Made by a program: the position numbers and the translations under genes. Positions 26,069 to 47,813 of a DNA stretch of 64,000 bases are shown in pieces. This DNA comes from a bacterium (GTDB taxonomy: Bacteria; Patescibacteriota; Patescibacteriia; 2-12-FULL-60-25): positions 1,184,625-1,248,624 of the forward strand of contig JAJYXM010000016.1 of assembly GCA_021796435.1 (NCBI GenBank), in the 5' to 3' direction. The notes beneath the pieces are model-generated. The model did not search any database and was not told the origin of the DNA. It worked only from the letters and a program-made list of their open reading frames with translations. Numbering within the stretch: the first letter of the stretch is position 1; each line of letters opens with the position of its first letter.

Positions 26069-26593
26069 ATGTGTATGGACGGATTACATCATCGCCACTC
26101 CATCCGTTTGCATGAATTCGACTATTCATTAGCGGGTGCATATTTTGTGACGATATGCACGCATAAAAGAGAGCGGCTGTTTGGAGACATCCAAGACGGG
26201 AACATGAAATTGAATGGGATTGGGCAAATTATCGATAATTGGTGGAACAAGATTTCCACGAAATATCGGGATGTACGCCTCGATGAATATCGCATCATGC
26301 CGAATCATTTCCATGGGATCGTTTGGATTTTGGATCATGTAGGGGCACCCCTTGTGGGTGCCCAAATAACCAGGGCAGGCACGAGGCCTGCCCCTACATT
26401 GGGTGAGATTGTCGGCGGTTTCAAATCTATTACGACGGTTGAATATATACGATCAGCAGTAGGAAATCCGTGGAAATTATGGCAGCGTAACTATTACGAA
26501 CACATAATCCGTAACGAAAACGAATTGTTCGCAATGCGAAAATATATCATAGAAAATCCATTGAAATGGAGACTGGATTCTGAGAATCGCTAG
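26069..26593 (+). CDS. REP-associated tyrosine transposase (RAYT, IS200-like)
   Basis: 174 residues. The HUH motif is in MPNHFHGIVWI, with the nucleophilic Tyr in RNYYEHIIRNENEL and the closing YIIENPLKW typical of RAYT proteins. The N-terminus HRHSIRLHEFDYSLAGAYFVT also fits. These enzymes cut and paste palindromic repeats. Between the HUH motif and LGEIVGGFKSIT the gene holds about 20 extra codons made entirely from a GTAGGGGC palindrome, in frame. The frame is open far upstream, but that part is antisense to another gene and has no ribosome site. Confidence 0.88.
   Translation: MCMDGLHHRHSIRLHEFDYSLAGAYFVTICTHKRERLFGDIQDGNMKLNGIGQIIDNWWNKISTKYRDVRLDEYRIMPNHFHGIVWILDHVGAPLVGAQITRAGTRPAPTLGEIVGGFKSITTVEYIRSAVGNPWKLWQRNYYEHIIRNENELFAMRKYIIENPLKWRLDSENR
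26339..26397. repeat. GTAGGGGC...GCCCCTAC palindromic repeat inside the RAYT gene
   Basis: 59 bp with outer arms GTAGGGGC/GCCCCTAC and two inner hairpins (GGGGCACCC stem; GGGCAGGC stem). Related 50-bp copies lie at 40089-40138 and 42279-42328, the only others seen here. Confidence 0.85.
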
Positions 26594-26607: not shown

Positions 26608-26866
26608 CCCTTCCCGTCCAAGTCCCACTTAGCCCTAAACGAAAATCCCGCTCTCGCGGGATCTTCTCATTTATCCTCCGAAGCTCCGTCAGGAGCGAAG
26701 GGGGATGGTCGGGCCAGTGGGACTTTCACGTTGTCGTTCCACTCCTCCTGGGAACCCAGCGGTTCCCAACCTCCGCAAAGGGGAAACTTCCGTTTCCCCG
26801 ACCCCCTTCCCGTCCAAGTCCCACTTAGCCCTAAACGAAAATCCCGCTCTCGCGGGATCTTCTCAT
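26608..26866. repeat. tRNA-Pro-associated tandem unit with hairpin cassette
   Basis: A 63-bp direct repeat (26608-26670 and 26804-26866, period 196) contains the tRNA terminator hairpin. Between the copies, read in tRNA sense, are an inverted T-arm copy, hairpins GGGGAAAC/GTTTCCCC and GGGAACC/GGTTCCC joined by a linker with TGCGGAGG, and then a 21-bp copy of the tRNA-Pro 3' end with CCA (26705-26725) followed by a TCC...GGA hairpin. No ORF of note. Same design as at tRNA-Phe and tRNA-Gly. Confidence 0.8.
26841..26858 (-). terminator. Terminator of tRNA-Pro
   Basis: ATCCCGC and GCGGGAT around a 4-nt loop, followed by TTTTC on the minus strand, 7 nt beyond the CCA. A second copy lies at 26645-26662. 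Confidence 0.75.
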
Positions 26867-26942
26867 GGTCGGGCCAGTGGGACTTGAACCCACGACCTCC
26901 TGCTCCCAAAGCAGGCGCGCTAGCCAACTGCGCTATGGCCCG
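26866..26942 (-). tRNA. tRNA-Pro(TGG)
   Basis: 77 nt with encoded CCA. Acceptor stem CGGGCCA, anticodon loop TTTGGGA (anticodon TGG), T-arm GTGGG-TTCAAGT-CCCAC. The intact gene; a 3'-end fragment of it recurs at 26705-26725. Confidence 0.95.
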
Positions 26943-29531: not shown

Positions 29532-29572
29532 GCGGGTATCGTACCTGCCTGCCGGCAGGCAGGTAGTGGCTA
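29532..29572 (+). repeat. Broken 5' copy of tRNA-Gly with a 20-bp palindrome inserted
   Basis: The first 21 nt of tRNA-Gly, interrupted after nt 12 by the perfect palindrome CCTGCCTGCCGGCAGGCAGG (29544-29563), with no target-site duplication visible. Beyond nt 21 similarity to the tRNA ends. The rest of the 29363-29619 gap holds no gene. Confidence 0.85.
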
Positions 29573-29619
29573 GGCAAAAGAGCAATATCAGGCACATACC
29601 GGTAACAAAAATCAAACAA

Positions 29620-29694
29620 GCGGGTATCGTATAGTGGCTATTATGCGACCCTTCCAAGGTTGAGAGGCGGGTTCGATTCCCGCTACCCGCTCCA
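29620..29694 (+). tRNA. tRNA-Gly(TCC)
   Basis: 75 nt with encoded CCA. Acceptor stem GCGGGTA, anticodon loop CTTCCAA (anticodon TCC), T-arm GCGGG-TTCGATT-CCCGC. Flanked by a 5' fragment copy upstream and a 3' fragment copy downstream. Confidence 0.95.
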
Positions 29695-33659: not shown

Positions 33660-33734
33660 TGGTGCCGAGGGCCAGGATTGAACTGGCGACGCAAGGATTT
33701 TCAGTCCTTCGCTCTACCACTGAGCTACCTCGGC
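33660..33734 (-). tRNA. tRNA-Phe(GAA)
   Basis: 75 nt with encoded CCA. Acceptor stem GCCGAGG, anticodon loop CTGAAAA (anticodon GAA), T-arm CCAG-TTCAATC-CTGG. Terminator immediately downstream at 33625-33656. Confidence 0.95.
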
Positions 33735-33969
33735 TTAGATTCTATCTTTTAAATACCTTCTGCCAAAACCCGTCTTAAAGTACTTTTCTCTAGCAATCGC
33801 CTTTTCTCGATCAAGACAAGCTTCGTAGTATATTACTTTCCATGGCTTGTCGGGTCGAGTGGCATCTACTTTACCGCTATTATGTTCATGCAACCTTCTT
33901 TTAAGGTCCTGAGAATCCTACATATCTTTTGTTTGTCTTAAGACTTTCAAGTACGTAGGTGTAGTGCAT
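33735..33969 (-). pseudogene. GIY-YIG endonuclease (YhbQ-like), frameshifted
   Basis: The frame opens with MHYTYVLESLKTNKRYVGFS, the GIY-YIG motif, then hits a stop. One base of shift restores LKRRLHEHNSGKVDAT, PWKVIYYEACLDREKAI and REKYFKTGFGRRYLK, the rest of the domain. The likely lesion is one extra G before the LKRR codon. The stop codon abuts the 5' end of tRNA-Phe, and the gene lies between the intact tRNA and a broken 5' copy of it, so it may have been cargo of the event that duplicated the tRNA. Confidence 0.8.
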
Positions 33970-34650: not shown

Positions 34651-34686
34651 GGGCGTGTAGCTCAGGTGGTTAGAGCGTCACACTGA
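34651..34686 (+). other. tRNA-Ile(GAT) 5' half copy (nt 1-36)
   Basis: Identical to the first 36 nt of the intact tRNA-Ile downstream, stopping between the second and third anticodon bases. What follows (starting CCTGCCCGCC) is a GC-rich arm whose inverse complement precedes the 3' half. Confidence 0.95.
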
Positions 34687-34736
34687 CCTGCCCGCCAATG
34701 CCTGCGCATTCAAAAATCTATTCGGCCATTATTAGT

Positions 34737-34813
34737 GGGCGTGTAGCTCAGGTGGTTAGAGCGTCACACTGATAATGTGAAGGTCCCTGGTTCGAGTCCA
34801 GGCACGCCCACCA
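34737..34813 (+). tRNA. tRNA-Ile(GAT)
   Basis: 77 nt with encoded CCA. Acceptor stem GGGCGTG, anticodon stem TCACA/TGTGA, loop CTGATAA (anticodon GAT), T-arm CCTGG-TTCGAGT-CCAGG. It is nested inside a 167-bp segment (34687-34853) that separates the two halves of another tRNA-Ile copy. Confidence 0.96.
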
Positions 34814-34853
34814 TATAGTGGCCGAGTGCGCAGACATAGGCATGGCAGGCGGG

Positions 34854-34894
34854 TAATGTGAAGGTCCCTGGTTCGAGTCCAGGCACGCCCACCA
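34854..34894 (+). other. tRNA-Ile(GAT) 3' half copy (nt 37-77)
   Basis: Identical to the last 41 nt of the intact tRNA-Ile, including CCA. With the 36-nt 5' half it sums exactly to one 77-nt tRNA, without loss or overlap. After CCA comes the hairpin ATCCCACTC...GGGAT also found after the tRNA-Pro 3' copy. Confidence 0.95.
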
Positions 34895-40053: not shown

Positions 40054-40204
40054 CAAAACCCGCCGGGCGGCGGGCTTGTGCGATTTTTGTAGGGGCAGGC
40101 CTTGTGCCTGCCCGGGCACCCGCAAGGGGCGCCCCTACGATTTTCTAGATCATCAATGAGACCAAGAGCAACGCGACGATGTTCAGGATCTTGATCATGG
40201 GGTT
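40054..40204. repeat. 151-bp duplication of the hppA tail, truncated copy
   Basis: Nearly identical to 42244-42394: terminator hairpin CCCGCCG/CGGCGGG, a GTAGGGGC palindrome (40089-40138), then the last ~20 codons of hppA. Here the hppA part has no gene body; it joins the 3' end of the PRTase-like gene, whose last codons also resemble out-of-frame hppA sequence. Confidence 0.92.
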
Positions 40205-42243: not shown

Positions 42244-42394
42244 AAAAACCCGCCGGGCGGCGGGCTTGTGCGATTTTTGTAGGGGCAGGCCTTGTGCCTG
42301 CCCGGGCACCCGCAAGGGGCGCCCCTACGATTTTCTAGATCATCAATGAGACCAAGAGCAACGCGACGATGTTCAGGATCTTGATCATGGGGTT
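42244..42394. repeat. 151-bp repeat at the true hppA 3' end
   Basis: Partner of 40054-40204, offset 2190 bp. Holds the hppA terminator and a GTAGGGGC palindrome (42279-42328). The gap 42034-42243 has a hairpin AGAGACGGG/CCCGTCTCT (42071-42094) and degenerate GTCAT-type repeats but no gene. Confidence 0.92.
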
Positions 42395-47710: not shown

Positions 47711-47753
47711 GCGCGCGTAGCTCCTGCTTGCGCCTTCGGCTACGGCAGGCAGG
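47711..47753 (+). repeat. Broken 5' copy of tRNA-Ile(TAT) with palindromic insert
   Basis: GCGCGCGTAGCT, the first 12 nt of the tRNA, followed by an imperfect 31-bp palindrome (47723-47753, arms CCTGC/GCAGG), after which degraded tRNA similarity resumes (ATAGTCAGGACATCTG). The insertion point in the D-arm matches those at tRNA-Gly and tRNA-Phe. Confidence 0.75.
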
Positions 47754-47813
47754 CCATAGTCAGGACATCTGCTCATTAAAGTTTGTGGTCAGCGCTTAGA
47801 GAAACACCATCAA

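Follow-up and report, generated by a model that had tools for sequence, protein, structure and literature searches.

Patescibacteria appear to harbor a small mobile cassette whose cargo is a single tRNA gene. The case from which this proposal starts is a complete tRNA-Ile(GAT) gene enclosed, together with a pair of inverted arms, in the anticodon of a second tRNA-Ile(GAT) gene. From this locus and its counterparts in other genomes, we propose that the inserted segment is probably a hairpin-ended cassette without an open reading frame, carrying one complete tRNA, which inserts into a tRNA gene of the same isotype and replaces it. The turnover of essential, single-copy tRNA genes by an element whose sole cargo is the gene that it breaks would be unexpected.

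An intact tRNA-Ile lies between the exact halves of another

The window, that is, the whole stretch of DNA that was analyzed, spans 64,000 nucleotides. A preliminary description of it had placed an intact tRNA-Ile between the exact halves of a second tRNA-Ile, separated by a 167-bp segment with no base lost or duplicated, and this arrangement held in full. Joining nt 1-36 (GGGCGTGTAGCTCAGGTGGTTAGAGCGTCACACTGA) and nt 37-77 (TAATGTGAAGGTCCCTGGTTCGAGTCCAGGCACGCCCACCA) of the outer gene gave a sequence identical to the inner tRNA at 77 of 77 positions (Table 1). The outer gene is cut between A35 and U36, inside the anticodon, with 0 bases missing or repeated. Because the first and last bases of the insert (C and G) differ from the bases that they displaced (T and A), the junction is unique and lacks a target-site duplication. 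ARAGORN and the Rfam tRNA model (RF00005, 74.1 bits) both called the inner copy alone, with anticodon GAT. The locus showed neither a sigma-70 promoter consensus nor an intrinsic terminator consensus, a result that carries little weight for this phylum.

The same description had noted inverted arms at the ends of the segment with further pairing between them. We found that the arms pair over nearly the whole distance from the ends of the insert to the tRNA, in about 32 base pairs distributed over several helices. Folded as RNA, the insert forms one long interrupted stem with the tRNA as its cap (-81.1 kcal/mol, z -6.0), and folding it as DNA gave the same architecture (z -6.7).

Table 1. Features of the nested tRNA-Ile(GAT) locus, in positions of the window
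Feature	Position	Strand	Basis
Outer interrupted tRNA-Ile(GAT), 5' half (nt 1-36)	34651..34686	+	Identical to inner nt 1-36; 5' flank matches the intact locus of G001
Hairpin-ended cassette, 167 bp, between A35 and U36, no target-site duplication	34687..34853	+	Exact junctions; ends also seen on the Thr(UGU) cassette here and at about 45 other loci
Left terminal sequence CCTGCCCGCC	34687..34696	+	Common to other cassettes; these 10 bases were imposed by the searches
Left arm, pairing with right arm	34687..34736	+	RNA and DNA folds, arm comparison
Intact inner tRNA-Ile(GAT)	34737..34813	+	ARAGORN, Rfam; no other complete tRNA-Ile(GAT) found in this genome
Right arm	34814..34853	+	RNA and DNA folds, arm comparison
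Right terminal sequence GGCAGGCGGG	34844..34853	+	Read at the Ile insert; recurs in pattern matches
Outer tRNA-Ile(GAT), 3' half (nt 37-77)	34854..34894	+	Identical to inner nt 37-77

The orthologous site in a genome of the same genus (G001) holds a single uninterrupted tRNA-Ile. Its 5' flank is 94% identical to that of the window over 167 bp, and this similarity ends exactly at nt 36. In the genome G002, a degenerate tRNA-Ile copy lies immediately upstream of an intact one; in the degenerate copy, a GC-rich hairpin stands in place of the anticodon arm. A derived tRNA-Ile T stem is found in G001-G003 and is absent from the genome under study (G000), whose inner and outer tRNA-Ile alike have the sequence version that is common in the family. 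Since the two copies are identical and of this common version, a foreign cassette and a duplicated native gene are indistinguishable here by sequence alone.

Nested tRNA genes recur across Patescibacteria

We searched 84,980 species genomes for places where the 5' half of a tRNA continues into CCTGCCYGCC. The 28 matches comprised 16 nested Patescibacteria loci, including one in the complete genome CP011216, together with seven Bacteroidota tRNA-Arg loci and five archaeal tRNA-Lys genes; the latter are ordinary tRNAs and were set aside. A second, context-free scan used the pattern CCTGCCCGCCN{80,110}GGCAGGCGGG, which does not require a tRNA, on 380 Patescibacteria genomes. It returned 35 matches in 23 genomes, and a reversed-pattern control returned 0. 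A tRNA was contained in 30 of the 35 matches, and these occupy tRNA genes or their remnants; no tRNA-bearing copy among the 35 matches lay clearly outside a tRNA gene. Matches without a tRNA inside also had no outer tRNA. The terminal 10 bases were fixed by the search pattern, but positions beyond them also tend to pair (ATnGCC with GGCnAT). The tRNA-Thr locus described below adds a second insert with these ends in the same genome, and analogous loci across the phylum number about 45. A solo hairpin with cassette-type ends was seen at one further locus (L205).

Inner tRNAs match the isotype of the genes that they interrupt

We compiled 48 loci, chosen for the presence of an inner tRNA. In 28 of these, the seven-base anticodon loop of the inner tRNA is re-formed exactly by the outer halves or is intact right beside the junction. 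When the outer halves were joined, ARAGORN recognized 22 as tRNAs, 21 of which have the isotype of the inner copy, with one left unclassified. Identity between inner and recognizable outer tRNAs ranges from 54 to 88%, and reaches 100% in the window only. Since inner and outer usually differ and the stems of both are paired, these loci are not simple duplications; a tandem duplication with later deletions was rejected as a general account on these grounds. Also consistent with cognate targeting, C34-anticodon genes, which a U34 partner could probably replace, hold cognate inner tRNAs only.

The anticodon loop holds about two thirds of the insertions and the D loop about one third. Cuts fall, among other sites, at 34|35 (Cys), 35|36 (Ile, Thr, Arg, Gly), 36|37 (Pro), and 37|38 (Val, Ala). 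One locus (L186) is doubly nested: its outermost tRNA-Thr(CGU) holds a tRNA-Thr(CGU) cassette, which is itself interrupted by another such cassette. Of the outer genes, more than half have decayed past recognition as tRNAs. Several others (for example, those at L153, L158, L160, and L165) form perfect cloverleaves, with CCA and undamaged stems, and are unlike the tRNA they enclose. From the sequences, we infer that function rests with the inner copy, because it is complete in every compiled locus, all of which were selected for an inner tRNA, and the outer copies are often decayed.

The nested tRNA-Thr of the same genome carries a foreign inner copy

The genome under study contains a second nested case, a tRNA-Thr(UGU) within a tRNA-Thr(UGU), cut at 35|36 and with insert ends like those at the Ile locus. 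The 5' half ending in AACGGTTTTG is followed by CCTGCCCGCCAATCGCCGGGC, the intact tRNA-Thr(UGU), GGCGTTCGGCAGGCGGG, and then TAAACCGT. In a third case, a complete tRNA-Leu(UAG) is enclosed by nt 1-21 and nt 40-87 of another copy; inverted arms flank this tRNA, and there are no CCTGCCCGCC ends at the break. When tRNAs with the same anticodon were compared between this genome and its congener G001, identities were 96-100% except for Thr(UGU) (80%) and Leu(UAG) (86%), and both exceptions are nested loci.

The tRNA-Thr locus precedes rpmG in both genomes, and the copy in G001 is native and intact. In the genome under study, the outer tRNA-Thr has a 5' half resembling this native gene and a decayed 3' half, and the inner tRNA belongs to a different type, 97% identical to a stand-alone tRNA-Thr of a genome in another family. 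Over its full length of 113 bp, the Thr cassette shares 89% identity with a cassette of a third family (G066), which occupies the D loop instead of the anticodon loop. At the threshold used, no match came from any of the nine other family members that the sample listed. Judged from these sequence comparisons, the inner tRNA-Thr(UGU) is demonstrably foreign to the host lineage, and the native tRNA has been replaced in at least this one case.

The Thr arms recur with their tRNA in distant genomes. The presence of related cassettes in different loops argues for separate insertions rather than a single inherited one. Cassettes with the same arms are mostly found at one conserved tRNA-Thr/rpmG locus, so their spread could be partly vertical, although a shared neighborhood is expected given that the target gene resides there. 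In addition, the body of the tRNA-Thr(UGU) before rpmG differs among all four congeners (L118, L119, L129, and L069). Given that the other tRNAs of the genome under study and G001 are nearly identical, these four different bodies suggest recurrent replacement at one locus.

A model of cognate tRNA replacement

We propose that a cassette inserts cleanly, with no target duplication, into a resident tRNA gene whose isotype matches its own, either in the anticodon loop or in the D loop. Insertion would silence the resident gene, the tRNA of the cassette would take over, and the resident halves would then be free to decay. The arms and the tRNA would move as a single unit. Similarity to the cognate tRNA may guide the insertion, through recombination or repair where a tRNA loop has been cut or forms a cruciform. 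Homology- or repair-guided insertion of this kind fits better than random insertion followed by selection: random transposition with loss of lethal insertions is weakened by the lack of clear non-tRNA sites and by the finding that C34 targets hold only cognate inner tRNAs.

The idea that a small tRNA-carrying element had entered the anticodon of a resident gene and supplied its function was already present in the preliminary description, and is supported by the empty site of the congener, the Thr case with its foreign inner tRNA, and the roughly 45 analogous loci. A foreign origin of the inner copy holds for Thr; for Ile, where inner and outer are identical, a local duplication may account for the pair instead. 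Whether cassettes of this type act throughout the phylum as minimal mobile genes, which recognize and destroy one tRNA gene, bring an exact and cognate-directed replacement, and thereby cause repeated turnover between distant lineages, is a broader proposition on which we consider the case evenly balanced. If true, it would provide a mechanism for horizontal tRNA replacement, an experiment of nature on the fit between foreign tRNAs and host synthetases, and an origin for split tRNA genes in bacteria. For tRNA annotation in Patescibacteria, many interrupted and decoy copies are to be expected.

What moves the cassettes, and alternative explanations

One possible mechanism for the cassette model, which we regard as unlikely, is homing by GIY-YIG enzymes: a small endonuclease would cut a tRNA gene, and repair would copy the cassette from a filled allele, with the outer halves serving as homology arms. 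Homing would account for both cognate targeting and the absent target duplication. In this genome, 5 of the 13 small GIY-YIG genes have an intact tRNA on one side and the split copy of that tRNA on the other (Phe, Trp, Pro, Val, and Arg), against 0.35 expected (0 of 20000 simulations reached this association), and Bacteroidota tRNA-Arg loci have a hairpin-interrupted tRNA beside a GIY-YIG-like gene. However, GIY-YIG genes were found within 700 bp of 3 of 48 cassettes and 2 of 46 control loci, which is no enrichment, and similar cassettes occur in different loops. A GIY-YIG gene was therefore rejected as a linked component of the cassette, despite its clear association with other split-tRNA loci here.

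A second explanation is that a hairpin element entered a tRNA gene and that the inner copy was derived from that gene by local duplication or gene conversion, with no horizontal transfer. The identity of inner and outer in the window, the abundance of partial tRNA copies beside intact genes in this genome, and solo hairpins of the same kind in tRNA fragments all speak for it. It is nevertheless improbable, since in the other recognizable cases inner and outer diverge by 12-46% with paired stems in both, the inner tRNA-Thr is far closer to the tRNA of another family than to that of the congener (97% versus 80%), and the Thr arms and tRNA recur together in distant genomes.

We consider it more improbable still that the cassettes are hairpin-ended MITEs moved to random targets by an IS200/IS605-like Y1 transposase, with selection keeping only cognate cargo. 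The hairpin ends and the lack of target duplication do resemble IS200/IS605 elements. Yet a search for Y1 transposases gave no match in 7 of 19 cassette genomes, one of which is a one-contig genome, and only a partial match in the genome under study, so that a Y1 enzyme was rejected as a universal helper; moreover, non-cognate cases number zero despite many C34 isoacceptor targets, and no tRNA-bearing copy lies clearly outside tRNA genes. Phage carriage was rejected as well: no extrachromosomal cassette was found, as nine pattern matches on viral contigs were all free of tRNA and a search of distant phages returned ordinary tRNA similarity only.

The least probable of these explanations is a tRNA intron that contains a tRNA: once the inner copy is excised, the outer halves would be spliced in cis or in trans across the arms, as happens in Nanoarchaeum. 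The likeness to the split tRNAs of Nanoarchaeum that had been pointed out is one of form only. In favor of this explanation, arms pair at the break and several outer genes are perfect cloverleaves differing from the inner tRNA. A functional parallel is opposed by the lack of EndA (PF01974) and RtcB (PF01139) in 12 of 12 genomes, with positive controls detected, which led us to reject splicing by known proteins. Further points against it are that most outer genes are beyond recognition, that the native outer tRNA-Thr of this genome is without its 3' half, and that insertion positions vary between the D loop and four sites around the anticodon; the perfect outer genes could be recent insertions.

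Comparison with known systems

Integrative elements of the Islander type also target and split tRNA genes, restore a working tRNA from their own sequence, and leave a displaced fragment (PMC4383910). Those elements encode a tyrosine integrase and rebuild only one end of the gene, whereas the cassette has no open reading frame and carries a whole tRNA in mid-insert with target halves on both sides; its 167 bp are filled by the tRNA and arms. In Caldiarchaeum, the insertion of a mobile element left an old 5' fragment of tRNA-Thr(GGU) beside a different complete tRNA-Thr (PMC3293823). The nested loci resemble this arrangement, but the archaeal element is 1.8 kb long, encodes a predicted recombinase, and sits in an intron-containing tRNA; it is not nested and lacks hairpin ends (PMC3293823).

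Archaeal split, permuted, and intron-containing tRNAs share with the nested loci the parting of halves in or near the anticodon loop and the pairing arms (PMC3218864, PMC4033280), but here EndA and RtcB are absent, the insert is a complete cognate tRNA, and outer copies are often decayed. A group I intron is also at odds with the locus, since the 5' half ends in A where U is required, and the 167 nt are taken up by the tRNA and arms; Rfam gave no intron match in the window. Like REP and other short palindromic repeats (GTAG- and CGTC-tagged, PMC3733652) and MITEs, the cassettes are short hairpins without an open reading frame and have many copies. Unlike them, they carry a gene and reside in a cognate tRNA gene, and no GTAG or CGTC tag was seen at their ends. 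The small GIY-YIG genes in split tRNA copies of this genome recall the free-standing endonucleases of T4 and intronless homing (PMC2988022), but the hairpin cassettes encode no endonuclease.

The features by which we propose to define the class are conserved ends, an intact inner tRNA, an outer tRNA of the same isotype, and no target duplication, and all four were found. The view that the class is new rests on the failure of the defining features of every known family that was tested; alternatively, the cassettes can be counted as tRNA-carrying MITEs. In open-access texts, we found no description of nested tRNAs, CPR tRNA introns, intronless homing, disrupted tRNA genes, or tRNA-carrying MITEs that matches the cassette.

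Other split tRNAs and hairpins

Many tRNAs (Pro, Phe, Gly, Met, and others) are followed on their 3' side by a structured stretch (26866-26942, 29620-29694, and 33660-33734 with their flanks, and L005). In order, this stretch contains the T arm of the same tRNA as a reverse complement, several hairpins, and a second tRNA 3' end with CCA, and Rfam has no family for it.

At 33759-33914 on the minus strand, a partial GIY-YIG gene lies between a tRNA-Phe 5' fragment, the D loop of which is interrupted by a hairpin, and an intact tRNA-Phe. The gene has an apparent frameshift, and a search of the genome likewise recovered only a partial GIY-YIG. Small GIY-YIG genes also separate intact tRNAs from their split copies for Trp (L088), Pro-GGG (L087), Arg-GCG (L083), and Val-GAC (L075). 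Two further 5' fragments, of tRNA-Gly (29534-29575) and tRNA-Ile(TAT) (47713-47755), stand upstream of intact genes and have their D loops cut by CCTGCC-type hairpins.

At the Bacteroidota loci (L142-L146, L154, and L167), the anticodon arm of a tRNA-Arg(UCU) gene contains the 20-nt palindrome CCTGCCTGCCGGCAGGCAGG. In several of them, a GIY-YIG-like gene comes next, followed at L145 by an intact tRNA-Arg. Degenerate copies of Thr-GGT (L072), Val-GAC (L075), Asp (L084), Arg-GCG (L083), and the Ile of G002 (L009) have a hairpin of the CCCCGGTGnnCACCGGGG type in place of the anticodon arm. Finally, REP-like inverted repeats ending in GTAGGGGC were seen at 40089-40138, 42279-42328, and 26337-26399.
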